NCBI RefSeq assembly: GCF_030817015.1
Contig: NZ_JAUSYS010000001.1
Location: 310,001 to 374,000 of the forward strand
Reading direction: 5' to 3'
DNA length: 64,000 bases
From: Arthrobacter sp. V1I7
GTDB lineage: Bacteria > Actinomycetota > Actinomycetes > Actinomycetales > Micrococcaceae
The notes under the pieces were generated by a model, which saw nothing but the letters and a program-made list of their open reading frames with translations, had not been told where the DNA came from and made no database searches. A program made the translations under genes and the position numbers. This document shows, one piece after another, positions 40,113-55,023 of the stretch (the first letter of the stretch is position 1; each line of letters opens with the position of its first letter).

Positions 40113-41231
40113 CTACTTGTTCCGAAGCTTAGGGTCAACGATCTCCGTCCGGATCACTGCCGCCAGCGTCTGGACCGTTGTGGTGATCCCGGTATTCCGC
40201 TTGATTTCCTTGCGGATCGTTTCCAGCACCGTGTCGGACAGAATGACGTCCAGCAGCGCATCCGGCGACGTTGCCGCGCGGTGCTTCCACAGCTCGTCGA
40301 TCCGACGGCGCTTGAGCGCCTCCCGGTGCAGGAAGAACATTTTGTCGGCTTTTGCCTCCAGCGATTCAGGGCCGAGGAGGTCAACCTCGAAGGCGAGATT
40401 TACAATCACGGGGAGTCCGCCGGTCAGGTGGTACGCCTGCCAGACCTGGCCGTTGGTGAGGATCATCCACTCCACACCCTCGTTGACCGCATACATCTGG
40501 ACTTGACGAAGGTGGCGCTCATTCAGTTTCTGGCTCACCCGTTTGACCTCTATGAATGCAACCAGCTGCTTGTCAATTCTGACGCCGTAGTCCGCGAAAT
40601 CCTGTTTGACCATGTATTCGGTGCTCAGGTCGCGGAATTTGTCATAGCCCAAACCCTCGCAGAGCATGTCCGTAATCAAGAGCCGGGTGTCGCCCTCATT
40701 GGCGTCACGCGTGAGGAGATCGTGGAGTGGTCTTGTGAATCTCTGCACGGCACCTTTAACCTGCTCATGGGCCTCGGACTCCCACTTCGGCCCCTTGGCA
40801 ATGGGGGTCGTGGGTTTGATCTCCGCGATGACTGTGACGGCTTCGGCGGCGTGGCTGCTGCCGTGTTCCGTGTCCGGGGAAAGGACCGTCACGAGGCTCA
40901 CTTCCATCGCCGCCGGCGCCGGCGCGTCGGCTGAATTTTCGTCGGCTGGAACGACTTGGAGAGCGTGGGCCGCACCCGCGGGACGCGACAATTCGTCGGG
41001 GAGCTGGACATGTGGGTCCACGACACCAAAAGCTGCCTGTTTCAACAGCCACTGGATTGTCGGCAACCAAGGCTGGACGGCCTCCCTGCTTACTCCCGGG
41101 GCCTCGCCGGTCCTCGCCGCGGAGATGGCCTCCAGATCGGCAATGCGCGGGACAAGGTGACCCTGCCCAGCTGCCTCAGTCGCCCAATGGGACAGCACCT
41201 GCAGACGTGCCTGATACTTGATGTCTGTCAT
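40113..41231 (-). CDS. Restriction-endonuclease-like protein (HsdR-N-type PD-(D/E)XK)
   Basis: A 372-residue protein. Residues ~190-300 have TRLLITDMLCEGLGYDKF, a strand with DYGVRIDKQ, then LVAFIEVKRVSQKLNERHLR (ExK) and VEWMILTNGQVWQAYHL. This is the arrangement of type I restriction HsdR-N nuclease domains found in solo proteins. The N-terminus has an unassigned helical domain and an acidic low-complexity linker. The C-terminus is helical (KRRRIDELWKHRAATSPDAL). The ATG at 41231 follows GGGGG with 5-base spacing. It is divergent from the Ter operon. No helicase or methylase gene is near, so a classic restriction role is doubtful. Confidence 0.75.
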   Translation of the reverse strand: MTDIKYQARLQVLSHWATEAAGQGHLVPRIADLEAISAARTGEAPGVSREAVQPWLPTIQWLLKQAAFGVVDPHVQLPDELSRPAGAAHALQVVPADENSADAPAPAAMEVSLVTVLSPDTEHGSSHAAEAVTVIAEIKPTTPIAKGPKWESEAHEQVKGAVQRFTRPLHDLLTRDANEGDTRLLITDMLCEGLGYDKFRDLSTEYMVKQDFADYGVRIDKQLVAFIEVKRVSQKLNERHLRQVQMYAVNEGVEWMILTNGQVWQAYHLTGGLPVIVNLAFEVDLLGPESLEAKADKMFFLHREALKRRRIDELWKHRAATSPDALLDVILSDTVLETIRKEIKRNTGITTTVQTLAAVIRTEIVDPKLRNK

Positions 41232-41252
41232 TTTTCCCCCATTTGTATTCAA

Positions 41253-41674
41253 TCCTTACTTGGACATTGACTTCGGGTGAATGACTTCCAGCAAGAGCCG
41301 TCCTTTGCGTCTGAGATTCGGCAATTAGACGAGACCATACACTGCCACCTTGTCCGGCTCCGCCCGCGCCACGACTCCAATTCGAAGCTCAAGGAGACGC
41401 ACGCGAAGTGTTCTTGAAAGCATTTGGCTGGTCGCCTGTTATTCCGGTTTCCGCGCCATTCCAGGCCTTCGCCGTCTCTTTGCTTCTGCCGCCAGCGTCA
41501 GGCGGCTTCGCCATCACCTCGATTCCGGCTAGGATCACTCTCGAACCCGGCCTGATCGGCATGGTCTGCGTCCTCACCCCTCTAACTTCACATGTACGCA
41601 CGGAACTAGCGCATGGCCGGAGTCGTTGGGACCTGAGGACACGAGTATTCAAACTAGCTGGAGGTTAAGAAATT
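41253..41674. other. Ter operon leader region
   Basis: No gene is supported in ~420 bases between the divergent nuclease-like gene and the first TerD gene. GGAGGTTAAGAAATT precedes the ATG at 41675. It must contain the operon promoter; no operator was identified. Confidence 0.4.
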
Positions 41675-42265
41675 ATGGGATTGAGCTTGCAGAAGGGCCA
41701 GTCGCTGTCGCTGACCAAGAAAGACGGCGGTTCGCTCACTAAGACCAAGATGGGGCTGGGCTGGGACTCGGCGGCCCCGGCCAAGAAGGGCTTTTTCGGC
41801 AAGGCCAAGACCGTGGAGGTCGACCTCGACGCATCGGCCATTTTCTTCGACGCGGCTGGAAAGTCGCTGGATCAGGTCTGGTACAACCAGTTGCAGAGCA
41901 AAGACGGCTCCACGCGTCATACCGGGGATAACCTGACGGGCGACGGCGACGGCGATGACGAGACGATCCTGGTCAACTTGGAGCTCGTCTCCCCGGCCGT
42001 GGCACACATCGTCTTCGTCATCAGCAGCTACACCGGCCAGACCTTCGATCAGGTGCAGAATGCCTTCTGCCGGCTGGTGGACGACTCCACGCCAGGAAGC
42101 CCGGAAATTGCCAAGTACCAGCTGACCGACTCGGGAACCCATTCGGCCATGATCATGTCCAAAGTATCCCGTGACGGCGCGGGATGGACCTTTAAGGCCA
42201 TCGGGGAGCGGGCCCAGGGCCGGTCGGTCGCGGATTTGATCGCACCTGCTGCCGCCGTCCTCTAG
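41675..42265 (+). CDS. TerD-family protein 1
   Basis: 196 residues: MGLSLQKGQSLSLTKKDGGS start, GLGWD core motif, VDLDASAIFFDAAGKSLDQV, FYNQLQSKDGS-like strand (WYNQLQSKDGSTRHTGDNLT) and the calcium-binding acidic loop GDGDGDDETILVNL. A short insert (PAKKGFFGKAKT) distinguishes it from the next paralogues and recalls TerZ-like members. TerD proteins bind Ca2+ and act in tellurite, phage and DNA-damage-type stress tolerance. First gene of the operon; the next starts 22 bases on. Confidence 0.9.
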   Translation: MGLSLQKGQSLSLTKKDGGSLTKTKMGLGWDSAAPAKKGFFGKAKTVEVDLDASAIFFDAAGKSLDQVWYNQLQSKDGSTRHTGDNLTGDGDGDDETILVNLELVSPAVAHIVFVISSYTGQTFDQVQNAFCRLVDDSTPGSPEIAKYQLTDSGTHSAMIMSKVSRDGAGWTFKAIGERAQGRSVADLIAPAAAVL

Positions 42266-42286
42266 TCGCTCGAAGGATCCTTTATT

Positions 42287-42868
42287 GTGTCGAGTCTGAC
42301 CCTTACCAAAGGCAATAATCTCTCACTCACCAAGGCTGATCCGGGGCTGGAACGGGCCCTGATCGGCCTGGGCTGGGATCCGCGGACCACCAGCGGCGAA
42401 CCCTTCGACCTGGATGCTTCGGCGCTCCTGGTCGGGGCGGACGGCAAGGTCCGGTCCCAGGACGACTTCATCTTCTACAACCAGCTCCAGTCCAAAGACG
42501 GGTCGGTGGTCCACCAGGGCGACAACCGCAGCGGTGTGGGCGACGGGGACGACGAACAGGTCCTGATCGACCTCAGCCTGATCGCAGCGGACGTGGAGCG
42601 CGTTGTCATCGTTGTTTCCATCGACCAGGCGGATGCCCGCGGCCAGAACTTCGGCCAGATCCGTGACGCGTACTGCCGTGTGATGAACCAGGACACGGAT
42701 CAGGAAGTGGTCCGCTACGATTTGAGCGAGGACGCGGCACCTGAAACGTCGATGATTTTCGCCGAGATTTACCGCAACCGTGCCGAATGGAAGTTCCGGG
42801 CGGTTGGCCAAGGCTATGCCACGGGTCTTCACGGCATCGCCACCGATTTCGGCATTTCGCTGGACTAG
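42287..42868 (+). CDS. terD: TerD-family protein 2
   Basis: 193 residues with a GTG start; GAAGGA lies upstream. It is near full-length match to the canonical TerD layout: LTLTKGNNLSLTKADPGLER, GLGWDPRTTSGEPFDLDASA, FYNQLQSKDGSVVHQGDNRS, GVGDGDDEQVLIDLSLIAAD, SIDQADARGQNFGQIRDAYC, RYDLSEDAAPETSMIFAEIY and QGYATGLHGIATDFGISLD. It is highly similar to paralogue 3, indicating a tandem duplication. Confidence 0.93.
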   Translation: MSSLTLTKGNNLSLTKADPGLERALIGLGWDPRTTSGEPFDLDASALLVGADGKVRSQDDFIFYNQLQSKDGSVVHQGDNRSGVGDGDDEQVLIDLSLIAADVERVVIVVSIDQADARGQNFGQIRDAYCRVMNQDTDQEVVRYDLSEDAAPETSMIFAEIYRNRAEWKFRAVGQGYATGLHGIATDFGISLD

Positions 42869-42906
42869 TTCGCAAGATCGATTCAACACGAAGGAATGGT
42901 ACAAAC

Positions 42907-43488
42907 ATGGCAGGACTAACCCTTACCAAAGGCAGCAATCTGTCCCTGACGAAGAGCGCACCAGGCCTGACGAAGGCTGTGGTGGGATTGGGCTGGGACC
43001 CGCGTACGACGACGGGAGAGTCTTTCGACCTCGACGCCTCCGCCCTCCTGGTGGCGGCGGACGGCAAGGTCCGGTCCTCCGCGGACTTCATTTTCTACAA
43101 CCAGCCCGCTGCCGCGGACGGCTCCGTCAGCCACCTGGGGGATAACCGGTCCGGCGAAGGCGCCGGCGACGACGAACAGATCCTGATCGATCTCTCCCTG
43201 GTTGCGGCCGACGTCGAGCGTGTTGTCATCGTGGTCTCCATCGACCAGGGTGAAGCGCGCGGCCAGAACTTCGGCCAGGTGCGCAGCGCCTACTGCCGGG
43301 TGGTCAACCAGGTCGATGACAAGGAAATCGTCCGCTACGACCTGAGCGAGGACGCTGCGCCCGAAACGTCGATGATTTTCGCCGAGGTCTACCGCAACAA
43401 CGGGGACTGGAAGTTCAAGGCCGTCGGACAGGGGTACGCCACCGGACTCGCCGGCATCGCCAAGGACTTCGGCGTCGACCTTAGCTGA
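42907..43488 (+). CDS. terD: TerD-family protein 3
   Basis: 193 residues: MAGLTLTKGSNLSLTKSAPG, GLGWDPRTTTGESFDLDASA, GAGDDEQILIDLSLVAADVE, SIDQGEARGQNFGQVRSAYC and QGYATGLAGIAKDFGVDLS. The ATG at 42907 has GAAGGA-type sequence upstream; longer frames upstream overlap paralogue 2 and are not real. Tandem duplicate of paralogue 2. A strong hairpin separates it from telA. Confidence 0.93.
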   Translation: MAGLTLTKGSNLSLTKSAPGLTKAVVGLGWDPRTTTGESFDLDASALLVAADGKVRSSADFIFYNQPAAADGSVSHLGDNRSGEGAGDDEQILIDLSLVAADVERVVIVVSIDQGEARGQNFGQVRSAYCRVVNQVDDKEIVRYDLSEDAAPETSMIFAEVYRNNGDWKFKAVGQGYATGLAGIAKDFGVDLS

Positions 43489-43547
43489 TCAGTGCCCCGG
43501 ACTGATTAGAGTCCCGGACTGACTAGCTCCGCATCGTTTCCACCTGA

Positions 43548-43583
43548 GGTGGTGTCCCGGCCAATCGACACCGGGACACCACC
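43548..43583 (+). promoter_or_regulatory. Intra-operon stem-loop between terD3 and telA
   Basis: Perfect 13-bp inverted repeat ggtggtgtcccgg (43548-43560) with its complement at 43571-43583 and a 10-base loop, ending 22 bases before the telA ATG. There is no T tract. Also nearby, a short direct repeat cccggactgaytag occurs twice (~43496-43523). It may set telA dosage by attenuation, or act as a processing or mRNA-stability element. Confidence 0.55.
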
Positions 43584-43605
43584 GCTCTCTCGAAAAGGCA
43601 GCATC

Positions 43606-44799
43606 ATGAATTCTCCGTTGACTCCCCCCGACGCCGCAGAGGCTTCATTGGTGCTTCAGGCTCCGGACGCCCCTGCCATAGTTCAGCCCGAAGACGCTCC
43701 CGGGATGGTGCCGGTCCCCGACGAACGAAGGGCCGAGATCAACAGGCAGGCCAGAGAGTTCGTGGCCGGTCTGGCCCAGCTGGACGCGCGCAGCCCGGAG
43801 TTCTCCTCACAGGTCGATGGCATCAACAAGATCGGCAGCGCCGAGATCACAGCGTCCAGCAACTCCTCCAGCAGGCTGCTGGAGCGTTCCTCGACGTCCG
43901 TTGCCGGCGCCAAGAAGTCCGGGAACAGCGCTCAGGTTGCGGTCGCCAACACCCTGGGTGAGCTGCGGAGCACGGTAGAGGAGCTTACTCCCAACCAGGC
44001 CAACATGAGCGTGGGCAAGAAGATCTTGGGCTTCATCCCCGGCGGCAACAAGCTGGCCAAGTACTTCCAGAAATACGAGTCGGCGCAGACCCAGCTGAAC
44101 CAGATCATCAAGGCGCTGATGACGGGCCAGGACGAGCTGCTCAAGGACAATGCCAGCCTGGCCAACGAAAAAATCCAGCTCTGGGAAACGATGCAGGCGC
44201 TGAGCGAATATGCCGTCTTCGCCAAGGCACTGGATGCCGCCTGCGTGGAGAAGATCGACTCCACCCGCGCCGCCGGGCAGATTACCGAGGCGCAGAAGAT
44301 GGAGGCGGACGTCCTGTTCCCCGTGCGCCAGCGCCACCAGGACATCCTGACCCAGCTTGCCGTCTCGGTTCAGGGGTACCTGGCGATGGACCTGATCCGT
44401 AAGAACAACGTTGAACTGATCAAGGGTGTGGAACGGGCGCGGACCACCACCATTTCTGCCCTGCGCACGGCAGTGATCGTGGCCCAGGCCTTGGCCAACC
44501 AGAAGATGGTCCTGGACCAGATCGACGCCGTCAATACCACCACCAACAACATGATCCTGAGCACCAGCGAAATGCTCAAGGACCAGACTTCCCGAATCCA
44601 CCAGCAGGCGTCCAGCTCCGGGGTCAGCGTGGAGACGCTGCAGAAGGCCTTCGACAATGTGTTCGCCACGATGGATGCCATTGACACCTTCCGGTCGGAG
44701 GCGGCCAAGAACATGGAGAGCACCGTCGGGGCCCTCGAAGCCAGTGTGCAGAAGGCCAAACCGTACCTGGAACGCGCACGCCAGGGCCAGACAGACTAA
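43606..44799 (+). CDS. telA: Toxic-anion (tellurite) resistance protein, TelA/KlaA family
   Basis: A 397-residue mostly helical cytosolic protein. Family features are ERRAEINRQAREFVAGL, a long coiled-coil-like middle, ILGFIPGGNKLAKYFQKYES, LWETMQALSEYAVFAKALDA, FPVRQRHQDILTQLAVSVQG and AMDLIRKNNVELIKGVERAR, ending KAKPYLERARQGQTD. TelA travels with TerD genes and is linked to resistance to tellurite and other stresses by unknown chemistry. The ATG at 43606 was chosen for the family-like acidic N-terminus and short spacing after the hairpin. Confidence 0.93.
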   Translation: MNSPLTPPDAAEASLVLQAPDAPAIVQPEDAPGMVPVPDERRAEINRQAREFVAGLAQLDARSPEFSSQVDGINKIGSAEITASSNSSSRLLERSSTSVAGAKKSGNSAQVAVANTLGELRSTVEELTPNQANMSVGKKILGFIPGGNKLAKYFQKYESAQTQLNQIIKALMTGQDELLKDNASLANEKIQLWETMQALSEYAVFAKALDAACVEKIDSTRAAGQITEAQKMEADVLFPVRQRHQDILTQLAVSVQGYLAMDLIRKNNVELIKGVERARTTTISALRTAVIVAQALANQKMVLDQIDAVNTTTNNMILSTSEMLKDQTSRIHQQASSSGVSVETLQKAFDNVFATMDAIDTFRSEAAKNMESTVGALEASVQKAKPYLERARQGQTD

Positions 44800-44830
44800 G
44801 TGACGGCGGAAAGCAGCAGGCGGTACCGCA

Positions 44831-45334
44831 GTGATTGGTAAGTTCATCGGCTCCCTGTTCGGCGGCGCCCCCGTGCCGAGCATCGCCGAACAGGCTCCCG
44901 AGCCAACGGCCGACGCCGAGATGGCGCAGACCGCCGGATCCTTGGACAACCTGCGCAGCGCCATCCGGCGGGCTGGCGCTGAACTGCCGACGTCGGTGTC
45001 CTCGCAGCTGCGCCAAATCGACGATGTGCTGCGCCCGCTGGTGAGCCATATGGCCGAGCAGGGGGCTTCGATGGAGCAGCAGGTGCTGTTGAATTCCATC
45101 GTCTGCAGCTACATCCCGGATCCCCTGCGCACCTATCTGGCGCTCCCGGACAGTGCCAGGACCGAGGAGTCCGGGCCGACGCGGCTGCTGGCGGAACAGT
45201 TCGCCACGCTCGAGGAGATAGCTCGGGACCTGGCCAACCAGGTGCGGATCGGTGCCATTGCCGAGCTGTCCACCCACGGCCGGTTCCTCGAAGATAAGTT
45301 CGCGCCGTCCACGCTTCGTCTGGAAGGCCGCTGA
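44831..45334 (+). CDS. Ter-operon protein of unknown function, 167 residues
   Basis: GTG start 31 bases after telA. The frame gives VIGKFIGSLFGGAPVPSIAE, SLDNLRSAIRRAGAELPTSV, SQLRQIDDVLRPLVSHMAEQ, VLLNSIVCSYIPDPLRTYLA, LLAEQFATLEEIARDLANQV and ELSTHGRFLEDKFAPSTLRL. It is mainly amphipathic helices with a hydrophobic glycine-rich N-terminus and no catalytic motif. Its stop overlaps the start of the fourth TerD gene (TGATG), so they are co-translated. I recognise only that similar small helical proteins sit beside TelA in actinobacterial Ter clusters. Probably a structural partner of TelA or TerD. Confidence 0.65.
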   Translation: MIGKFIGSLFGGAPVPSIAEQAPEPTADAEMAQTAGSLDNLRSAIRRAGAELPTSVSSQLRQIDDVLRPLVSHMAEQGASMEQQVLLNSIVCSYIPDPLRTYLALPDSARTEESGPTRLLAEQFATLEEIARDLANQVRIGAIAELSTHGRFLEDKFAPSTLRLEGR

Positions 45335-45885
45335 TGGGCAATCTTGTGGCCGGGGCCAACGCCGCGCTGACGGCCGAGAACCCGGGACTGAGCAAGATCC
45401 TGGTCGGCTTGGGCTGGCAGTCCATCCCCAGCCGGGGGCCCCAGTCCGAGCTGGTTCCCCTGGCGATCATGTGCGACGCCAGCGGCCGGGCCGTCTCGAA
45501 CGATCACCTGGTATTTTTCAACCAGATCGCCAGCCCGGAGGGCTCGGTGGCCTTCGCCGGCACCGACGACCAGGAGCAGATCGACGTCGACCTGTCCCTG
45601 GTGCCGGTCAGCGTTGCCAAAATTACGTTCATTGTCTACGTCGACCCCGATCTCCGCGGGCCCGGCACCTTCTCCGCCATCCGCGGCCAGTACATCCGGG
45701 TGGCTACCGCACAGAATCAGGAGCTGGTGCGCTTCGATATTCCCCAGTCCCCGCAGGACAACATCACCGCCATGATGTTCGGCGAACTGTACCGCCACCG
45801 CGAGGACTGGAAGTTCCGGGCCCTGGGCCAGGGCTACACGACCGGACTGCGCGGCGTGGCAGCCGACTTCCGGTTCGATGTCTAG
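45334..45885 (+). CDS. Divergent TerD-family protein 4
   Basis: 183 residues: NLVAGANAALTAENPGLSKI, LVGLGWQSI, VPLAIMCDASGRAVSNDHLV, FFNQIASPEGSVAFAG, DDQEQIDVDLSLVPVSVAKI, FSAIRGQYIRVATAQNQELV and RALGQGYTTGLRGVAADF. The TerD fold is clear but the N-terminal TLTKGxNLSLTK motif is replaced and the calcium loop is reduced to TDDQEQID. Start overlaps the previous stop. It probably pairs with the adjacent unknown proteins rather than replacing the canonical TerDs. Confidence 0.88.
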   Translation: MGNLVAGANAALTAENPGLSKILVGLGWQSIPSRGPQSELVPLAIMCDASGRAVSNDHLVFFNQIASPEGSVAFAGTDDQEQIDVDLSLVPVSVAKITFIVYVDPDLRGPGTFSAIRGQYIRVATAQNQELVRFDIPQSPQDNITAMMFGELYRHREDWKFRALGQGYTTGLRGVAADFRFDV

Positions 45886-45888
45886 GCG

Positions 45889-46710
45889 ATGGCACTGAAC
45901 AGGTCCAACATCCGCACGGACATCACGTATCTCAGCCGGCGGGTCAAGCCGGCCGCCCAGGCTGGCCGGGCCGCCCGCGCTGACACATCGGACCCGGCAA
46001 CATCCGAGCCGGCTGCATCCATACGGACACCGGCGGCGCCGTCGAAGCCGATGTCCCCGGCCGCCGCCCCGACCACCCCGACAGCCGCCCCGTCGCTGTC
46101 CCTGAGCCGATCGCCCGCGCCAGCATCCCCAGCAGCAGCCACCTCGCCAGCGACGCCATCGGCCGGAGCCCGGCCGGCAGCCGCGGCTCGGCCCGCCCGG
46201 CTTTTTCCGGCTCCCGGGATCGGCGCGACGAGGCTCATCGACGCCCAGACGCCCATGATCCGCCTTGACGCGCGCCAGTCGGCGATTGGAAGTCTGCTGG
46301 TGACCGGGGCAACCTCGGCGGCATGGGAAAGCTCCGACCGTGTGACCGGGGCAATGACGGTTGACGGCGCCGTCTCCGGCACTTCCATCAAATGCTCGGG
46401 AAACCGCCCGCTGGTCGGCTACGTGGACGGGACGGCAGTCGTGGCGCTGCGGCATATCCGCGAACTGCGCCGGGCGCTCTTTATCGGACCGCGTTCGGCC
46501 CCCCTGACCGTTGAGATCTTCGACGGCGGCACCGTGACGCTGCCCGCAGCCGACGGAGAGCTCAGATACATCCTGTCCCTGACCGCGATCGATGGACTCA
46601 TCGAGTTGCGCGCCGAACCGGTGCCGGCCCGCGCCGATGCCGCCTTGCTCTGGCAGGAATTCGGCTTTTCTATGACCACCCAAGCTGCCGCCCGTCGGCA
46701 GGGACCCTGA
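45889..46710 (+). CDS. Ter-operon protein with Ala/Pro linker and beta-rich C-terminal domain
   Basis: 273 residues, starting 3 bases after TerD4. A basic N-terminus (MALNRSNIRTDITYLSRRVK) leads into ~75 residues of Ala/Pro/Thr/Ser linker. The C-terminal ~150 residues (FPAPGIGATRLIDAQTPMIR, IGSLLVTGATSAAWESSDRV, TSIKCSGNRPLVGYVDGTAV, LTVEIFDGGTVTLPAADGEL) look like an all-beta domain, possibly a carrier or interaction module. No catalytic motif is recognised. It is tightly packed with the CitE-like gene (9-base gap), suggesting it works with the metabolite-synthesis half of the operon. Confidence 0.65.
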   Translation: MALNRSNIRTDITYLSRRVKPAAQAGRAARADTSDPATSEPAASIRTPAAPSKPMSPAAAPTTPTAAPSLSLSRSPAPASPAAATSPATPSAGARPAAAARPARLFPAPGIGATRLIDAQTPMIRLDARQSAIGSLLVTGATSAAWESSDRVTGAMTVDGAVSGTSIKCSGNRPLVGYVDGTAVVALRHIRELRRALFIGPRSAPLTVEIFDGGTVTLPAADGELRYILSLTAIDGLIELRAEPVPARADAALLWQEFGFSMTTQAAARRQGP

Positions 46711-46719
46711 CGGGACGGC

Positions 46720-47970
46720 ATGCGCCATTTCAGTTTTCTAAGCGACGAGCATGCCTCGCGCCTTTTCCACATCGCTCCGCAGGAGCTGAGCCTGGGCTCG
46801 GCCCCCGCGCTGCTGGCCGTGGCCTTGGGCGCCACGCTCTACACTCCGGCGGACCGCCCGAACCTGGCGCAGGATATCAGCAAACAGGCGGCCCGCGGCT
46901 GCCTGAGCATGGTGATCTGCCTCGAGGATTCCATCGCCGATGATGTGGTGGACGCCGCCGAGACCAACGTCGTGAACACGCTGACCCGGCTGCATGCCGG
47001 TTCCGCCGGGCCGGGCCGCGGGAGCGGCGTCGGCAGCGACGATGACAGGAGCGGCGACAGCGGCAGCGACCCCGAAGGCGCCTTCCACCTCGACGAGGGG
47101 CCTTTGCTGTTTCTCCGGGTCCGCACCCCGGAGCAGATGCTGAGCCTGGCCCGCCGCTGCGGCAATGCCCTGGACCTGCTGATGGGCTTTGTCATTCCGA
47201 AGTTTGAGAATGAGACCGGCCAGGCGCAGCGGTTCCTGGACGCCCTGCATAACATCAACGCTTCCCGCGGGGGCGGCCGCAGGCTGCGGATAATGCCCAT
47301 CATGGAATCGCCGGTCATGATCCACGGCGAGACCCGGGCCAGGACCTTGTCCGGTATCTGCGACGTGCTGCAAGCCAACCGGGAGGATATTCTGGCCGTC
47401 CGCGTGGGCGCCACGGACATGTCCAGTGCCTTCGGCCTGCGCCGCTCCCGGGACCTGACCATCTATGACGTCAAGGTGGTCGCCTCCGTAATCGGGGACA
47501 TCGTGAATGTGCTGGGCCGGCCGGATGACGGGTTCGTGATCTCCGGTCCGGTGTGGGAGCACTACGGCAACAGCGAACGAGTACTGCGCCCCCTGTTGCG
47601 GCGAACTCCCTTCGCGGACGCAAATGAGATGCCCCTGCGCGATCGGATTCTGACGGCCAACCTCGACGGGCTGATCCGCGAAATCGAACTGGACCTGGCC
47701 AACGGGCTGCTGGGCAAGACGGTCATCCACCCCACCCATGTCCCGCTGGTCCATGCCATGTGTGTCGTCAGCCACGAGGAATACGTGGACGCGCTGGAGA
47801 TCGCTGGCAAGAACGGCGGCGGCGCCTCGGCCTCGCCGTACGGCAACAAGATGAATGAGATGAAGCCCCATAAGGCCTGGGCCGGCCAGACGCTGCTGCG
47901 TGCCGCAGCGTTTGGCGTTGCCGCCGAGAACATCACCTACGTTGACCTTCTGGAAGCGAGCATGAATTGA
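46720..47970 (+). CDS. CitE/HpcH-type TIM-barrel C-C lyase (Ter-associated)
   Basis: A 416-residue aldolase or citrate-lyase-beta-like enzyme. Motifs include HIAPQELSLGSAPALLAVAL, GCLSMVICLEDSIADDVVDA (acidic metal ligand), LLFLRVRTPEQML, MGFVIPKFENETG, RIMPIMESPVMIHGETRART, AVRVGATDMSSAFGLRR and GKTVIHPTHVPLVHAMC. This is the Ter-linked 'C-C bond lyase' branch, longer than standard CitE (~300). It contains a low-complexity Gly/Ser/Asp insert (~residues 95-120). The end overlaps the PRTase gene (TTGA). Predicted to make a carbon skeleton for the Ter metabolite; substrate unknown. Confidence 0.85.
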   Translation: MRHFSFLSDEHASRLFHIAPQELSLGSAPALLAVALGATLYTPADRPNLAQDISKQAARGCLSMVICLEDSIADDVVDAAETNVVNTLTRLHAGSAGPGRGSGVGSDDDRSGDSGSDPEGAFHLDEGPLLFLRVRTPEQMLSLARRCGNALDLLMGFVIPKFENETGQAQRFLDALHNINASRGGGRRLRIMPIMESPVMIHGETRARTLSGICDVLQANREDILAVRVGATDMSSAFGLRRSRDLTIYDVKVVASVIGDIVNVLGRPDDGFVISGPVWEHYGNSERVLRPLLRRTPFADANEMPLRDRILTANLDGLIREIELDLANGLLGKTVIHPTHVPLVHAMCVVSHEEYVDALEIAGKNGGGASASPYGNKMNEMKPHKAWAGQTLLRAAAFGVAAENITYVDLLEASMN

Positions 47971-50519
47971 GCCAGCACCCCTGGACCGGCGGCTTTGTGC
48001 GGGACGCCCTCGGCGTCAGCATCAAGACGGACCACTCCGCCAGCCTGCTGCCGGTCGAGGACTTGGTGGGACTGGCACTGCGTCGCAACCCCAAGCGGGC
48101 TCACCTGCTGGTGTCCCGGGTGCTGGGCAAACACGTCCCGTCGGAACCCGGGCTGGTCATGGCCGCCGGTGAGCTGCTGGGGGTGCTCGTCGGCGAGGCG
48201 CTGTCCGCCTCCCCGGAATCCGGATCCGTCACTCGGACCATTGCGGCCGGGCTCGCCGCGCTCCTGCGCGGGGAAACGCACGACGACGGCCGGCGGGCCG
48301 CGTTGCGGAGTCTCCGGCGGCGGCTCGCCGGGTTGAAGACCCGCAACCAGCAGATCATTACCATCGGCTACGCGGAGACGGCAACCGGCCTGGGGCGGCT
48401 TGTGGCCGACACGATCGGCTCGTACTACATCCATTCCTCCCGGCATGCCCCGGCGGGCGCCGCCGCCTATGGGTCCTTCGAGGAATCACATTCGCACGCC
48501 ACCTCACACCGGCTGCTGCCCACGGATCCGCGGCGCCTGAACGCCCCGGAACCGGTGGTGCTGGTCGACGACGAACTCAGCACCGGGGCCACGATCATCA
48601 ACACCATCACCGAACTCCACGCCCTGGCGCCCCATCCCAGCTACACGGTGGCCGCACTCGTGGACCTGCGGACACCGGGCGACCGGGCCAGGCTCGACGA
48701 ACTGGCGGAACGGCTCGGAACCCGCATCCGGGTGGTGGCCCTGGGCACGGGGCAGATCACCCTGGGCGCGGACATTCTCCAGCGTGCCGACGAGGTGGTG
48801 GCGGCCCTGCCGCAGGTGCCGGCAACTCCCGATTCGGCACCCGGAACGGTGACCTTCCTCAAGGTCGCTGCGGACGGCGCAGCCGTCCGCAGCGACCGGT
48901 TCGGCAACGGCGGCCCCCCCGCGGCGGCTACCCTGGCCGAGATCGGGGCATCGATCCACCGGGTGCTTCCGCAGGCGGCTGCCGCGGAGTCCGTTCTGGT
49001 CCTGGGCAGCGAGGAGTTCATCCACGTGCCCCTGGCCGTGGCCGATGCACTGGACCGGCTAAATCCGGACCGCGGCGTCCGGTTCTCCACCACCACCCGC
49101 TCCCCGATCCTCGCACTCGACCGCCCGGACTACGCCATCACCGGCACGGTGCAGTTCACCAGCCATGACGTCACCGTGGACGGCCCCGGTGCGCGCTTCG
49201 CCCACAATGTTTCCTCCGTCGGCCGCAGATTCGGCACCATCGTCCTGATGCCCGAACCTGGAACCCCCGCAGAGGTCCTCTCGGGTGCCGGCAGCGTGAC
49301 GGAGGCGCTCAGCGCCGTCTGCAGCGCGGTCGTCGTCGTCCTCCTGCACGCCTCACCCATCCTCCCGGCGCCGCTGGCCGGACCGGCGTTCGGTTCCTAC
49401 GCACCGGAGGAAGTCACCTGGTTGCTCAAGGACATCGGTGATGCCGCGCTGGAAGCGCCAGCGGCCGATCGTGAAGCCGCGATGCAATCGGGCGGGGCGA
49501 GCTATGCAGAGTCCCTGCCGATCGAATATTCGCCCTCGCAGCAGTACCAGCAGCTGTACCGGGACGCCTTGAAACGCTCCTCCGCGCGCGTCGCGCAGGC
49601 CGTGGGCACCGTGACCGAGATGGCGCTGGCCGCGCGCCGGAACCGGCCGGTGTTGGTTTCCCTGGCTAGGGCCGGCACGCCGGTCGGCATCCTGATGCGC
49701 CGCTGGGCGCAGCAGATCCACGGCATCGACCTGCCCCACTACACGATGAGCATCGTGCGCGGCGTCGGGCTGGACCAGACCGCGCTGCGCTACCTGGCCG
49801 CCCACCATGATCCGGAGCAGATCCTCTTTGTGGACGGCTGGACTGGAAAGGGCGCGGTCACCCGCGAGCTCTCGGCCGCCCTCGACCGCTTCGCCGATTC
49901 CGACGGTATTGCCTTCCCGAAGGACCTCGCCGTGCTCGCCGATCCAGGGCACTGCGCCGACATGTACGGCACGCGCGAGGACTACCTCATACCCTCCGCC
50001 TGCCTGAACTCGACGGTGTCCGGGCTCGTGTCCCGCACGGTCTTCAACACGAAGTTCATCGGCCCGGACGACTTCCACGGGGCCAAGTATTACCACCAGC
50101 TGCGCGGTGACGACGTCTCGCGGGAATTCCTGGCCGCCGTCTCCGGCCATTTCGCAACCGTCGAAGCGTCCGCCCGGGCCGAAGCCCCGGCCCTGCTGGC
50201 CGCAGACCGGACGCCCACCTGGGCCGGCCGGCTCGCGGTGGAAAACCTCGGCCGGGAACACGGGATCGACGACCTGAATCTGGTCAAACCTGGGGTCGGC
50301 GAGACAACACGGGTGCTGCTGCGCAGGGTGCCGTGGAAGATCCTGATGCGTCCTGATGCCGCGCCCGAGATAGCGCACATCCTGCTGCTGGCTCAGCAGC
50401 GCGGTGTGACGGTGCTGGAGGTGCCGGACCTGCCCTTCAGCTGCGTGGGGCTCATCGATCCGCGGTTCAGCCGAAGGGCATCCGGTGCCGATGGATTCAC
50501 TGCGGCGGCCGCCCTGTGA
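47967..50519 (+). CDS. Four-domain fusion: PRTase_2-TRSP-PRTase_1-PELOTA-like
   Basis: 850 residues, TTG start overlapping the CitE stop. Residues ~20-280 form a phosphoribosyltransferase with PRPP loop VVLVDDELSTGATI (197-210) and the IGYAETATGLGRLVADTIG region. ~290-470 is a TRSP-like domain (VLVLGSEEFIHVPLAVADAL, STTTRSPILALDRPDYAITG). ~515-760 is a second PRTase-like domain (VLVSLARAGTPVGILMRRWA, LFVDGWTGKGAV, TVFNTKFIGPDDFHGAKYYH). ~770-840 resembles the PELOTA RNA-binding module (RRVPWKILMRPDAAPEIAHI, GVTVLEVPDLPFSCVGLI). In the published Ter systems these parts, as I recall, are usually two proteins. It likely attaches phosphoribose to the CitE-derived product or to RNA. Confidence 0.85.
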   Translation: MSQHPWTGGFVRDALGVSIKTDHSASLLPVEDLVGLALRRNPKRAHLLVSRVLGKHVPSEPGLVMAAGELLGVLVGEALSASPESGSVTRTIAAGLAALLRGETHDDGRRAALRSLRRRLAGLKTRNQQIITIGYAETATGLGRLVADTIGSYYIHSSRHAPAGAAAYGSFEESHSHATSHRLLPTDPRRLNAPEPVVLVDDELSTGATIINTITELHALAPHPSYTVAALVDLRTPGDRARLDELAERLGTRIRVVALGTGQITLGADILQRADEVVAALPQVPATPDSAPGTVTFLKVAADGAAVRSDRFGNGGPPAAATLAEIGASIHRVLPQAAAAESVLVLGSEEFIHVPLAVADALDRLNPDRGVRFSTTTRSPILALDRPDYAITGTVQFTSHDVTVDGPGARFAHNVSSVGRRFGTIVLMPEPGTPAEVLSGAGSVTEALSAVCSAVVVVLLHASPILPAPLAGPAFGSYAPEEVTWLLKDIGDAALEAPAADREAAMQSGGASYAESLPIEYSPSQQYQQLYRDALKRSSARVAQAVGTVTEMALAARRNRPVLVSLARAGTPVGILMRRWAQQIHGIDLPHYTMSIVRGVGLDQTALRYLAAHHDPEQILFVDGWTGKGAVTRELSAALDRFADSDGIAFPKDLAVLADPGHCADMYGTREDYLIPSACLNSTVSGLVSRTVFNTKFIGPDDFHGAKYYHQLRGDDVSREFLAAVSGHFATVEASARAEAPALLAADRTPTWAGRLAVENLGREHGIDDLNLVKPGVGETTRVLLRRVPWKILMRPDAAPEIAHILLLAQQRGVTVLEVPDLPFSCVGLIDPRFSRRASGADGFTAAAAL

Positions 50520-51328
50520 ATTCCGTCCTGGTGGCCTCGGATCTCGACCGGACCCTGATCTACTCCGCGAAGGCCTTCTTCCTGGAGGTCCCCGACCACC
50601 TGGCACCGGCCATGGTGGTTGCGGAGCTCCACCAGGGGGTGCCGATCTCGTTTATGACCCGCACCGCCGAACAGCTGCTGCTCGAACTGACCCGGACGGC
50701 CATCTTCGTCCCGGTGACTACCCGGACCGAGGCCCAGTACCGGCGGGTCCGGCTGCCCGGTGCCGTGCCTGAATACGCGGTCACCACCAACGGCGGTGTC
50801 CTGCTCAAGAACGGCGAGCCGGACATCGAGTGGCAGACCACAGTCGGACAACTGGTCTCCGAAGGCTCCGCGCCGCTAGCCGTCATCGAGGAATTTTTGT
50901 CCCGGGAGGCCTACCGGACCTGGATCCTCCGGCTGCGCCAGGCCGAAGAGCTCTTCCTCTACGCCATCGTGGACCGGGAGCTCATGCCCGCGGAATTCGT
51001 GCGGGAGCTGGACGCATGGTGTGCCTCGCTGGGCTGGACGGTGTCCGTCCAGGGCCGCAAGCTCTACTGCGTGCCGCAGGCGGTGACGAAGAACAGCGCC
51101 GTCGCAGAAGTCGCCCGGCGGACCGGGGCCTCCCGGGTGATCGCCGCTGGGGATTCGCTGCTGGACGGACCGATGCTGGCCGAAGCCGACGTCGCCTTCC
51201 GTCCCTCCCACGGAGAACTCGCCGACGTCGATTTCCGCAGGGATCACCTGCGCGTGACCGATGCCCGCGGCATCCTGGCAGGCGAGGAAATCGCCCGGCG
51301 CATCCATGCGCTGGTCCAGCGCCTGTAG
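50516..51328 (+). CDS. HAD-superfamily phosphatase (Cof/SPP-like), Ter-associated
   Basis: A 270-residue hydrolase with GTG start overlapping the PRTase stop (GTGA). Motif I is VASDLDRTLIYS (nucleophile Asp and Asp+2), motif II is SFMTRTAE, the cap segment includes RLRQAEELFLYAIVDRELMP, the motif III Lys is in AVTKNSAVAEVARRTG, and motif IV is IAAGDSLLDGPMLAEADVAF. In Ter clusters such a phosphatase is expected to dephosphorylate the nucleoside-like intermediate made by the upstream enzymes. Last gene of the operon. Confidence 0.88.
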   Translation: MNSVLVASDLDRTLIYSAKAFFLEVPDHLAPAMVVAELHQGVPISFMTRTAEQLLLELTRTAIFVPVTTRTEAQYRRVRLPGAVPEYAVTTNGGVLLKNGEPDIEWQTTVGQLVSEGSAPLAVIEEFLSREAYRTWILRLRQAEELFLYAIVDRELMPAEFVRELDAWCASLGWTVSVQGRKLYCVPQAVTKNSAVAEVARRTGASRVIAAGDSLLDGPMLAEADVAFRPSHGELADVDFRRDHLRVTDARGILAGEEIARRIHALVQRL

Positions 51329-51535
51329 GACCCTCTTACGATCCATCGTGAATAGCGGACTCGTCCGGCTCCAGCGGAGCACCGCACGTCCCGAGAACCG
51401 TCAATTGTGCAGTCTTATTTCCTTATTTCGGGACCTGACGCCAAGGTGGACCGCATCATCTCGTCAACGTTCGGAAGGACATGATGGGCAAAAGCTGCAT
51501 GGCAGGAAGCCCCCGCCGTCGTCCGCTCACCAGGT

Positions 51536-51865
51536 TCATTCCTGGGTGTCGAGCCCCCAATGGACGCGGATAGCCTCGGCAATTGGGCCAGCGGTGACGT
51601 CGACCCGGAAAGCAACAGGCGCGGTTCCTGTCTCTTCGATGACCGCGTCACGGTACACGCGGCCGCAAGAGGGACACAGGGTGTAGAGATCCGCATCCGC
51701 AGGCCATTTCGCCAGCCCGGCGGGGACCGGGGTGCTGTCTCCGATGTAGACGGGGACGCCTTGTGAGTTGGCCTGAATCAACCCGTCCTTGCTGACAGTG
51801 TTGCCGCACACGCAGGTGATGGTGGTGACATCATGATCAATAACATCGGCGGTTTCAGTGTCCAC
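51536..51865 (-). CDS. Small zinc-ribbon hypothetical protein
   Basis: 109 residues. Two cysteine pairs, CVCGN and CPSCGR, about 45 residues apart suggest a zinc ribbon. Other text: VDTETADVIDHDVTTIT, SQGVPVYIGDSTPVPAGLAK and APVAFRVDVTAGPIAEAIRV. The GTG at 51865 is chosen because GGGGAGG lies 5 bases upstream; longer frames are unrelated. No family recognised. It is convergent with the Ter operon and about 100 bases from the SCO1664-like gene. Confidence 0.6.
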   Translation of the reverse strand: MDTETADVIDHDVTTITCVCGNTVSKDGLIQANSQGVPVYIGDSTPVPAGLAKWPADADLYTLCPSCGRVYRDAVIEETGTAPVAFRVDVTAGPIAEAIRVHWGLDTQE

Positions 51866-51969
51866 GATGACCTCCCCGGTGATGGAACGTTCTGTTTGTA
51901 GCCTATGCCTGCGGATTGGCCAGATGGTCTTCCTGGCAAACAAACTTCGAAGAAGGCACAGGCGGGCGC

Positions 51970-52713
51970 TTAGACGAGCGGCCACGGGTAACGCATGCCG
52001 CTGCGGTCTACCGGCAGCACCCCCGCGTGCAGCAGGCGCTGCACGCGGTGCTGCAGGGCACCGACCTCTTCGTCGTCGAGGAGCTCGGCCACCTCGGGAG
52101 GCACCGCCTCTGCGAGGGGAGCGATGTCCCCGAGCAGGGTGCTGGGGATGGGATCGCCGGCGAAGTCCCAGATCACGGTGCGGAGTTTGAAACTTGCCGA
52201 GAAGCACAGCCCGTGGTCGATGCCCCATACCCGTCCGTCGTCGCCGCGCAGCACGTGCCCGCTTTTGCGGTCGGTGTTGTTGGCGATGTAGTCGAACAGG
52301 GCAATCTGCGACAAGTCGCGGTGGGTCTCGGGCGCGTCAGCGTACAGCGTGAAGTAATGCTCACGGAAGTCGCACTCGATGAACCACTGCAGCGAACCGA
52401 TCCCCAAGGGCGCTTCCCCGCGGATCACCGTCGTCGGCACGAGTCCCCAGTCCAGGGACTCACTGAGCAGGTAGGCGGCACGTTCCCGCCGGTAGAGCCC
52501 GGGCTCGAAATCGGACAGCGGTCTTTCCCCGGCCTCCGGCTTGTAGACCGCGTAGGCTGTGTCGTTCCCGCAGGAAATCTCCACGAGGAACGTCTCGTTG
52601 CTGCTGCGCGGGAGGCGTCCGAGCAGTTCGACGCGGCCCTCGGCGAGCAGGGTCAGCTCCCGCCCGGACACCGGCTGTCCCCTTTTACCGTCTGTCTCAC
52701 CGTTAGTAGCCAT
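51970..52713 (-). CDS. SCO1664-family protein (PI3K/HipA-like fold)
   Basis: 247 residues. Family motifs are GRVELLGRLPRSSNETFLVE, YAVYKPEAGERPLSDFEPGL, RRERAAYLLSESLDWGLVPT, LFDYIANNTDRKSGHVLRGD (catalytic-loop-like N-x-x-D-R-K) and WGIDHGLCFSASFKLRTVIW (D-H-G metal motif). This actinobacterial family is distantly kinase-like and usually sits near mycothiol-ligase and MSMEG_4193-type phosphatase genes. Here it follows the phosphatase by 7 bases, forming a two-gene unit. Substrate unknown. Confidence 0.88.
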   Translation of the reverse strand: MATNGETDGKRGQPVSGRELTLLAEGRVELLGRLPRSSNETFLVEISCGNDTAYAVYKPEAGERPLSDFEPGLYRRERAAYLLSESLDWGLVPTTVIRGEAPLGIGSLQWFIECDFREHYFTLYADAPETHRDLSQIALFDYIANNTDRKSGHVLRGDDGRVWGIDHGLCFSASFKLRTVIWDFAGDPIPSTLLGDIAPLAEAVPPEVAELLDDEEVGALQHRVQRLLHAGVLPVDRSGMRYPWPLV

Positions 52714-52720
52714 TTCGCTA

Positions 52721-53401
52721 CTAACCCCTCAGCCCGCTGAGAGGTTCCGAGGTCGAATTCACCATGAGCACAGCGGGTGCCTGACCTTCCACAAACGAGA
52801 TGGCCGACACCGAGCCCGGGCTGATGACGATGCGCTGGAACAGGTCCAGGGGTGTGCCCAACGCGTGGGCGACGGCGGCCTTGATGGGGTCGGCGTGGGA
52901 GAAGCACACGACGACGCCTCCGGAGTGGGCTGCGCAAAGAACCTCAAGCGCTCCGACGATCCGCGCCTGCATCTGAAGAAAGCTCTCGCCGTTCGGGAAG
53001 CGGAAGGCAGACGGGCTGTGCTGGACGGTCTGCCACTGCGGCAAGGCGGCCATTTCGGCGATCGCGGCGCCGGTCCAGTCGCCAATGTCGCATTCGAGCA
53101 GGCCGGCGTCCCGGCTCACTTCCAGTCCCGTGCACGCTGCTGTGGGCTTCGCCGTCTCGCAGGTGCGCTCCAGCGGCGAGGAATAAATGGCGTCGACCGG
53201 CAGGCCCGCGAGCCGTTCTGCGACACGTTCGGCCTGGGCCCGGCCACGGTCGGAAAGATGCAGTCCCGGGGCCCGCCCCGGCAGCACCGTGCCCGTCGTC
53301 GGCGTCTCCCCGTGGCGCACCAGAAGGAGGAGCGTGCCTTGCTCCCTCGATGGAGGCCCCAAGGATGGCCCCGATGGTGCCGGCGGTGTGGCTGCAGTCA
53401 T
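52721..53401 (-). CDS. Histidine phosphatase family protein (MSMEG_4193-like phosphomutase)
   Basis: 226 residues. The catalytic motif LLLVRHGETPTTG has the phospho-accepting His. LSDRGRAQAERVAERLAG, AIYSSPLERTCETAKPTA, ECDIGDWTGAAIAEMAALPQ and VVVCFSHADPIKAAVAHALG (second His) follow the actinobacterial MSMEG_4193 pattern. The ATG at 53401 is taken as start; there is no ribosome site but TACGCT lies 8 bases upstream, so it may be leaderless. It is co-directional with SCO1664 and divergent from the MoxR gene. In many relatives a DUF3090 gene lies between these two; it is absent here. Confidence 0.88.
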   Translation of the reverse strand: MTAATPPAPSGPSLGPPSREQGTLLLLVRHGETPTTGTVLPGRAPGLHLSDRGRAQAERVAERLAGLPVDAIYSSPLERTCETAKPTAACTGLEVSRDAGLLECDIGDWTGAAIAEMAALPQWQTVQHSPSAFRFPNGESFLQMQARIVGALEVLCAAHSGGVVVCFSHADPIKAAVAHALGTPLDLFQRIVISPGSVSAISFVEGQAPAVLMVNSTSEPLSGLRG

Positions 53402-53573
53402 CAGGATCAAGCGTAGCGGCAGGGGCCCCGACCGAGCTTGCGGGGGTGGGGGAGCCGCGGAGCGGTATCGTTCACCGCCTCCCCGTGCTTCGCAGGCCCG
53501 GCCCGGGGACCCGGGCGGCCCCCAAGCTCAGGAATCCGAAAAAAATCCCTCGATTCCCCGCACAATCGAGGAC

Positions 53574-53579
53574 TACCGT
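53574..53579 (+). promoter_or_regulatory. Candidate -10 box for leaderless moxR transcript
   Basis: TACCGT fits the actinobacterial TANNNT -10 consensus and ends 6 bases before the GTG at 53586. The AGGA before the GTG is too close to act as a ribosome site, supporting a leaderless message. Inference only. Confidence 0.4.
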
Positions 53580-53585
53580 AGAGGA

Positions 53586-54974
53586 GTGAGTGATCGCCCC
53601 GATATCTTCACTGTTGGTGAATTGCGTGCCTCCGGCCACGTTCACAAGGACCTGCGCCGCGAAATCCGCAACAACCTGCTCGCCGCGCTCGCCGCCGGCC
53701 GTGATCCGTGGCCGGGAATGTACGGCTTCAGCCGTACCGTCCTGCCCCAGCTCGAGCGGGCCCTGCTCGCCGGCCACGACGTCGTCCTGCTCGGTGAACG
53801 GGGACAGGGCAAGACACGGCTCCTCCGCACCCTTGCCGGGCTGCTGGACGAGTGGTCTCCGGTGATTGAGGATTCGGAACTGAACGAACACCCGTACGAA
53901 CCCATCACAGAGCACTCCCGCGCCCGTGCCCTCACCGAGGGGGACCGGCTACGGGTGGCGTGGCGCCACCGCTCGGAGCGTTACGTCGAGAAGCTCGCGA
54001 CGCCGGACACTTCCGTCGCCGACCTGATCGGCGACGTCGACCCGATGCGGGTGGCCGAGGGCCGCCGCCTCGGGGACCCGGAAACCATCCACTACGGCCT
54101 GGTCCCGCGCTCCAACCGCGGGATCATCGCCATCAACGAGCTGCCCGACCTCGCCGAGCGGATCCAGGTCTCGATGCTCAACGTGATGGAGGAGCGCGAT
54201 ATCCAGATCCGCGGCTACGTGCTGCGGCTGCCGCTCGACGTACTGGTCGTCGCGTCCGCCAACCCGGAGGACTATACGAACCGCGGCCGGATTATCACGC
54301 CCTTGCGGGACCGCTTCGGTGCCGAGATCCGCACCCACTACCCGATAGAGCTCGACGACGAGGTCGCCGTCATCCGGCAGGAGGGGCAGCTGGTGGCCGG
54401 CGTCCCGCCGGTCATCCTGGAGATCCTGGCCCGCTACACCCGGGCGCTGCGGCAGTCCCCCGCGATCAACCAGACGTCCGGAGTTTCCGCGCGGTTCGCC
54501 ATCGCAGGTGCCGAAACCGTCGCCGCGGCGGCCTTGCGCCGGGCCAGCGTGCGCGGCGAGGCCGAGGCCGTCGCCCGGATCATCGACCTCGACGCCGCAG
54601 TGGAAGTTCTCGGAGGGAAGATTGAGTTCGAGTCGGGTGAGGAAGGGCGGGAACAGGACATCCTCGACCACCTCCTGCGCATGGCCACTGCAGAAGCCGT
54701 GCGGGCGCATTTCCACGGTATCGACATGGGTCCGCTCGTGGCTGCCCTCGACGGCCACGCCACCGTGACCACCGGGGAACTGGTCACCGCGCGGGAGGTC
54801 CTTCAAAACCTCCCGTCCCTCAACGGATCCCGCCTCTATGACGAGATCAGTGAGCGACTGGGCGCGACAAACGACGGGCAGCGCGCGGCCGCCGTCGAAC
54901 TTGCACTGGAAGGTCTCTACCTCGCCCGGCGGATCTCCAAGGAGTCCGACGACGAGGCGACGATCTACGGCTAA
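53586..54974 (+). CDS. MoxR-type AAA+ ATPase (Mg-chelatase I-like)
   Basis: 462 residues. Walker A GERGQGKT is at residues 70-77, Walker B-like GIIAINELPDL, sensor VVASANPEDYTNRGRIITPL, arginine-finger region RDRFGAEIRTHYP, and the C-terminal lid follows. A GTG start is used (VSDRPDIFTVGELRASGHVH); the apparent start is probably leaderless. The VWA-domain gene follows after 49 bases. MoxR and VWA pairs act as chaperone or metal-insertion machines remodelling partner proteins. The target here is unknown. Confidence 0.92.
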   Translation: MSDRPDIFTVGELRASGHVHKDLRREIRNNLLAALAAGRDPWPGMYGFSRTVLPQLERALLAGHDVVLLGERGQGKTRLLRTLAGLLDEWSPVIEDSELNEHPYEPITEHSRARALTEGDRLRVAWRHRSERYVEKLATPDTSVADLIGDVDPMRVAEGRRLGDPETIHYGLVPRSNRGIIAINELPDLAERIQVSMLNVMEERDIQIRGYVLRLPLDVLVVASANPEDYTNRGRIITPLRDRFGAEIRTHYPIELDDEVAVIRQEGQLVAGVPPVILEILARYTRALRQSPAINQTSGVSARFAIAGAETVAAAALRRASVRGEAEAVARIIDLDAAVEVLGGKIEFESGEEGREQDILDHLLRMATAEAVRAHFHGIDMGPLVAALDGHATVTTGELVTAREVLQNLPSLNGSRLYDEISERLGATNDGQRAAAVELALEGLYLARRISKESDDEATIYG

Positions 54975-55023
54975 GAAGAAGTTCCACGGCCAGGTAGTTC
55001 TACAGCAGAGCACAGGAGTACCC

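Follow-up and report, generated by a model that had tools for sequence, protein, structure and literature searches.

The 64,000-nucleotide stretch of the Arthrobacter sp. V1I7 genome analysed here (contig NZ_JAUSYS010000001.1, positions 310,001 to 374,000; hereafter the window) contains at 41675-51328 ten same-strand genes of a Ter-type stress operon: three TerD genes (TerD1-3), TelA, U5, a fourth TerD gene (TerD4), U7, and genes for a CitE-like lyase, a fused phosphoribosyltransferase (PRTase) protein and a HAD-type phosphatase. All ten open reading frames (ORFs) are intact and lie where a first-pass annotation had placed them, and the domain content that it had named was borne out by the ORF list of the window and by Pfam and NCBIfam searches. 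A Ter-dependent stress response system with a predicted nucleoside-like biosynthetic module was reportedly proposed by Anantharaman, Iyer and Aravind in 2012, and the operon is a well-conserved lineage variant of it. New in this variant are a U7 protein with a predicted TerD fold, a TerD4 without the acidic signature, a conserved U5, the apparent loss of DUF475 in one clade, an enzyme that is fused in some loci and split in others, and an upstream motif of the extracytoplasmic function (ECF) sigma type. PMC7824862 cites and summarises the 2012 prediction, and searches of the open-licence PMC literature turned up no paper on this operon type in Arthrobacter-like bacteria.

Gene content and domain families

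The TerD and TelA proteins and all five domains of the CitE and fusion proteins score above the Pfam cut-offs. In the fusion protein these are PRTase_2 (202 bits), TRSP (79 bits), StiP (PF11202, 340 bits), which we take to be the PRTase_1 of the first-pass annotation, and PELOTA_1 (110 bits). The HAD protein stays under the Pfam cut-offs, and its best NCBIfam matches, to HAD-IIB/MPGP models (E 4.7e-7), lie below the curated cut-off; U5 and U7 have no Pfam match. The CitE and PRTase/TRSP/StiP/PELOTA products thus belong to Ter-associated Pfam families. Overlapping stop and start codons are present at 45334 (TGATG), 47967 (TTGA) and 50516 (GTGA), the three sites at which translational coupling had been suggested. 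The starts of TerD3 and TelA are likely those given in Table 1, since the alignments with distant homologues begin only near 42907 and 43606, respectively. A genome-wide profile search places all four TerD matches and the single TelA match of the genome (5.03 Mb, two contigs, rated 100% complete) in this operon. None of the ten proteins matches a PADLOC-DB model of a known anti-phage defence system, and Rfam gives no match in the window.

Table 1. Features of the Ter operon, in window coordinates
Feature	Coordinates	Strand	Characteristics
ECF-sigma-type promoter-like motif GGAAC-N17-CGTT	41602..41627	+	73 nt 5' of TerD1 ATG
TerD1	41675..42265	+	PF02342, 156 bits; TerZ-like, DLDASA and GDN-G-GDGDDE signature
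TerD2	42287..42868	+	PF02342, 265 bits
TerD3	42907..43488	+	PF02342, 263 bits; start moved from ORF start at 42787
Inverted repeat between TerD3 and TelA	43548..43583	+	perfect 13 bp, 10-nt loop, without T tract
TelA	43606..44799	+	PF05816, 292 bits; ATG start replaces GTG at 43549
U5	44831..45334	+	helical, no family; directly 3' of TelA; 58 homologues
TerD4	45334..45885	+	PF02342, 162 bits; without acidic signature
U7	45889..46710	+	Pro/Ala-rich N-terminal part and C-terminal domain with predicted TerD fold; 97 homologues
CitE-like C-C bond lyase	46720..47970	+	C-C_Bond_Lyase PF15617, 366 bits
PRTase_2-TRSP-StiP-PELOTA fusion	47967..50519	+	four Pfam domains; TTG start overlaps CitE stop
HAD-IIB-like phosphatase	50516..51328	+	TIGR01486/TIGR01484 matches below cut-off; HAD motifs kept

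In an alignment of 37 sequences (34 of the 35 related loci described below, L008 being left out, plus the window, an enterobacterial region, L037, and a Tsukamurella plasmid, L038), the invariant positions include D201-D202-E203-T206-G207 of PRTase_2, E69-D70 of CitE, the FVDGWTGKGA stretch of StiP, and the HAD motifs D9/D11/T13, S45, K192 and G212-D213-D217. The PRTase_2 profile weakly reaches chains of UMP synthase and adenine phosphoribosyltransferase (E 0.007-0.06). Searched against PDB sequences, the StiP-PELOTA profile finds nothing but L7Ae-type chains and eukaryotic relatives (best E 0.019).

Structural studies of TerD assign Ca2+ binding to the DLDASA-type and GDN-G-GDGDDE stretches. 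TerD4 and eight relatives, hand-chosen from 31, lack both stretches when aligned with TerD1-3 and the enterobacterial TerD, TerE and TerZ. For the C-terminus of U7, a structure model and its structural matches predict a TerD-like beta-sandwich fold; none of 48 U7 members has a TerD match in sequence. The U5 model consists of six helices (mean predicted local distance difference test score 80.7), and no fold or family could be assigned, the structural matches being helical bundles, many of them designed. Four U5 homologues carry the source name "signal transduction histidine kinase", for which Pfam gives no support. By eye, U5 resembles XpaC around a Tyr-Leu/Ile-Pro segment, and a single-sequence hhalign comparison finds the same register with an E of 0.47. 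XpaC (PF10112) is not among the Pfam matches of 41 U5 members and has no match in the Arthrobacter genome.

Conservation and variable members of the operon

Related loci were collected by scanning genomes with CitE as the query protein, a sample that says nothing on operons without CitE. Among the 35 loci found, 31 keep all ten genes in the same order, and because of this the arrangement exceeds chance. By record title the ten-gene loci come from Microbacteriaceae and Arthrobacter-like bacteria, except for one that is listed as Sporosarcina. The remaining four (Gordonia, Bacillus and two Kurthia) contain CitE-PRTase-StiP-HAD, and tblastn gives no match to U5 or U7 in them. PRTase_2-TRSP and StiP-PELOTA are encoded by one gene in 16 of the 35 loci and by two genes in 18, the state in L008 being unclear. 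In L002, L004, L005 and L008, TerD2 is reduced to a C-terminal fragment (about 5990-6210), with TerD1 and TerD3 intact. L008 (Hiyo4) has frame breaks throughout, in many genes, and the split CitE of G030 is therefore read as the result of assembly errors. As a separate observation, the Sporosarcina record (L013, Sporosarcina beigongshangi) carries an Arthrobacter-type operon with 65% CitE identity, which may reflect transfer, contamination or misnaming.

The spread of the system is patchy. PF15617 exceeds 100 bits in 6 of 49 genomes of the same genus (own genome included) and in one of 30 others of the order, and among 396 genomes sampled across the phylum StiP was found in 20, in 19 of them above the cut-off. 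Relatives of the PRTase-StiP protein are present in 2566 of 72,556 plasmid records. The 15-kb record MT836648.1, which bears the label Bacteriophage sp. and may be a phage or a bacterial contig, encodes a further relative of this fusion (36.6% identity over 72%).

In all 26 ten-gene loci outside the clade of the window, and likewise in G047, a TerC-like DUF475 gene lies directly 5' of TerD1; the L006 protein matches PF04332 with 417 bits and PF03741 with 60 bits. DUF475 is absent from the window, from the whole Arthrobacter genome and from the genomes of L002, L003, L004, L005 and L008, in a search that was positive in G047, L006 and L007. The two TerC genes of the Arthrobacter genome are located outside this region, at 2.14 Mb and 2.20 Mb, and no TerC-type protein is encoded in the operon neighbourhood. 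Upstream, an HSDR_N-like gene (40113-41252, minus strand; PF13588, 27.4 bits) is divergent from the operon; 13 of the 35 loci contain a relative of it, and in five clade members it adjoins TerD1. DUF475 sits between the HSDR_N-like gene and TerD1 in eight other loci (L006, L007, L011, L012, L013, L015, L016 and L018). The simplest reading is that DUF475 was lost in the clade of the window. In Arthrobacter-like bacteria, the Ter operon may have a partner in the HSDR_N-like protein.

The ATP-grasp partner and the TerC-type membrane protein are treated here as optional members of the Ter biosynthetic system. The first-pass annotation had noted that the operon, unlike fuller versions, contains no ATP-grasp gene; the ten genes indeed include none, whereas the idea of a lost partner is rejected for this lineage, as none of 25 Actinomycetota genomes with StiP or Ter-type CitE has PF15632 near the operon. 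All PF15632 matches in these genomes, seven of them over 100 bits and the rest weaker, are on a different contig or at a distance of about one megabase or more. A genome-wide search, as the annotation had proposed, gives a single sub-cut-off PF15632 match in the Arthrobacter genome, inside a 1121-aa ORF that we take for carbamoyl-phosphate synthase. The ATP-grasp protein of the enterobacterial ter plasmid region (L037; PF15632, 129 bits) finds no match in the Arthrobacter genome, nor by tblastn in the 35 loci and the window, both searches being without a positive control. A 22-kb stretch of the Tsukamurella plasmid has no ATP-grasp annotation.

Like the system of the 2012 prediction, the operon unites TerD, TelA, a CitE-like lyase, PRTase_2-TRSP, StiP-PELOTA and HAD in one neighbourhood. 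It differs by the absence of ATP-grasp and DUF475/TerC in or beside the operon, by the presence of U5, TerD4 and U7 between TelA and CitE, and by the fusion of PRTase_2-TRSP with StiP-PELOTA. The L037 region of Leclercia p1106151-mcr matches in the CitE, PRTase_2-TRSP and StiP-PELOTA families and also encodes a phosphatase-like protein (S6PP, 21 bits) among its enzymes; there, however, ATP-grasp adjoins the PRTase_2-TRSP, phosphatase-like, StiP and CitE genes, the terZ, terA-like, terB, terC, terD and terE-like genes are divergent from the enzymes, VWA, TerY-C and PP2C genes are present, and no TelA is annotated in the stretch read. The Bacillus locus L033 (TerD-TerC-CitE-PRTase-StiP-HAD-YceG-TelA) shares the enzymes in the same order as well as TelA, and tblastn finds no ATP-grasp in it. 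Unlike the window, it has TerC directly 5' of CitE, contains YceG, encodes PRTase_2-TRSP and StiP-PELOTA in two genes, and gives no tblastn match to U5, TerD4 or U7. On the Tsukamurella plasmid, CitE, PRTase, StiP and the following ORF keep the order of the window and TerD genes are present, but DUF475 and a downstream protein with two TerD stretches are added, and no TelA is annotated in the stretch read.

Other neighbours in the window are an open-frame DDE transposase (DDE_3, HTH_32; 36784-37875, minus strand) about 3.8 kb 5' of the operon, adjoining genes for a PI3/PI4-kinase-like protein and a histidine phosphatase (51970-53410, minus strand) just downstream, and genes for an AAA ATPase with Mg-chelatase ChlI-like matches and then a VWA protein (53187-57024, plus strand).

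Transcription, proposed mechanism and alternatives

The motif GGAAC-N17-CGTT, which resembles ECF-sigma promoters, is found at -73 to -75 of TerD1 in each of the six clade members that lack DUF475. Among the 26 loci headed by DUF475, the strict motif occurs in three (L014, L015 and L017), 166-169 nt 5' of the estimated start. L010-L013 have it with one mismatch at the same place, the spacer letters being different, and L029 has a one-mismatch version elsewhere. Random 300-bp stretches contain the motif in 0.7% of cases with no mismatch and in 8.3% with one. At internal positions the strict motif precedes TerD1, when it is not the first gene, in 1 of 26 loci, and PRTase and HAD in none of 32. 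No sigma-70-type promoter was found at 41000-52000 (1.3 expected), and this region holds seven terminator-like sites (6.2 expected). In B. subtilis, yceCDEFGH and xpaC-yaaN are under sigma-W control (PMC3498285), with which an ECF-type motif here is consistent.

The operon can be read, with a probability of roughly one half, as a Micrococcales-type chromosomal Ter stress operon in which sensor genes and an enzyme line for a nucleoside-like compound, linked by TerD4 and U7, stand behind an ECF-sigma promoter. Transcription, as one unit, would probably start from this promoter, and the system may protect the cell from chemical or envelope stress. TerD1-3 would act as TerD proteins of the Ca2+-binding type, and TelA with U5 may form the sub-membrane part. 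The CitE-like lyase, the PRTase_2-TRSP-StiP-PELOTA protein and the HAD phosphatase would constitute the enzyme line, which may join an acyl-type unit or a base to phosphoribose from phosphoribosyl pyrophosphate (PRPP), before the HAD phosphatase removes the phosphate to leave a nucleoside-like compound. TerD4 and U7, signature-less proteins with a known or predicted TerD fold encoded between the sensor and enzyme genes, could link both parts by acting as receptors or as a scaffold for the enzymes or their product. In C. difficile, two of five TerD paralogues are synthesised more under metronidazole (PMC6262375); a disruption mutant of the Listeria TelA homologue is reported to be more sensitive to nisin and tellurite (PMC12791056), and TerD, TelA and TerC genes of a viral assembly are described in PMC11128244 as likely envelope-stress genes.

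Several observations weigh against this reading. The literature covered yielded neither biochemical data on a nucleoside-like product nor a report of a metabolite, transcript or enzyme activity of the operon. The likeness of U7 to TerD rests on predicted structure, as the two sequence profiles score 13.0 in hhalign, no better than 40 column shuffles (mean 12.8, maximum 19.3), whereas a positive control of one TerD half against the other gives 484; U7 as a TerD protein by sequence is thus unsupported, and the Foldseek list for U7 is headed by lipocalins, none of them significant. U5 against 13 XpaC proteins scores 13.3, again within the range of 40 column shuffles (mean 12.1, maximum 19.6), and with PF10112 silent, U5 as an XpaC-type partner of TelA is kept as a lead only. 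The promoter motif occurs at chance in the whole window (3 found, 2.74 expected), which leaves its position as the sole informative feature; the loose ECF pattern is absent from 22 of 33 loci, six of the nine strict cases come from one close clade, and the strict motif also precedes TerD2, TerD3 and CitE in 1 of 32 loci each. Given this frequency and the relatedness of the loci, an ECF-type promoter is a lead only.

The inverted repeat in the 117-bp gap between TerD3 and TelA could split TerD1-3 from the genes from TelA onwards, which would make TerD1-3 and TelA-U5-TerD4-U7-enzymes two adjoining, separately transcribed units. The stem is 13 bp long in L002, L003, L005 and L008 as well and 11 bp in L004; it has no T tract, and in the other 26 ten-gene loci the stem does not exceed 8 bp and the gene order across TerD3-TelA is kept all the same. 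Since, in addition, the ECF pattern precedes TelA in none (strict) or two (loose) of 31 loci, this division is considered unlikely. StiP bears the name of a cysteine protease in Pfam and in RefSeq, and it keeps Cys663, His591, His704 and Asp672 invariant in the 37 sequences, for which reason the protease name keeps standing. If StiP were a cysteine peptidase or otherwise not a PRTase, the output of the operon would be proteolysis or an RNA-directed activity of StiP-PELOTA instead of a diffusible nucleoside-like compound; a weak similarity of the PELOTA part to RNA-binding proteins of the L7Ae type (E 0.02) would fit this. Profile comparison does not support StiP as a PRTase, as hhalign gives 17.9 with PRTase_2 and 13.9 with an unrelated TerD, a negative that is weak evidence between distant members of one fold. 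The invariant FVDGWTGKGA stretch, however, is read as PRPP-loop-like, and PRTase_2, CitE and HAD, classical small-molecule enzymes, are found beside StiP in every one of the 35 loci, a set chosen through CitE, so that a peptidase-type output appears rather unlikely. Decay is less probable still: a partly non-functional copy would agree with the absence of DUF475 from six of six clade genomes and with the TerD2 remnants in the four relatives, but the intact reading frames and enzyme motifs of the window, together with 90-97% identity over CitE, the PRTase fusion and HAD in L002-L005, argue against it.

Within the proposed mechanism of a stress operon with a linked enzyme line, a more specific and quite speculative version is that the enzyme module signals through metal-free TerD4 and U7, as receptors of its product, to a TelA-U5 membrane complex, with no TerC/DUF475 step in this clade. 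If this were true, TerD would be a ligand-receptor fold, and co-purification would offer a route to the metabolite. Ter systems are common on plasmids. A compact chromosomal version from a soil bacterium, with its enzymes in one operon, without ATP-grasp and with two signature-less proteins of known or predicted TerD fold, may provide a simpler system in which to search for the predicted metabolite.

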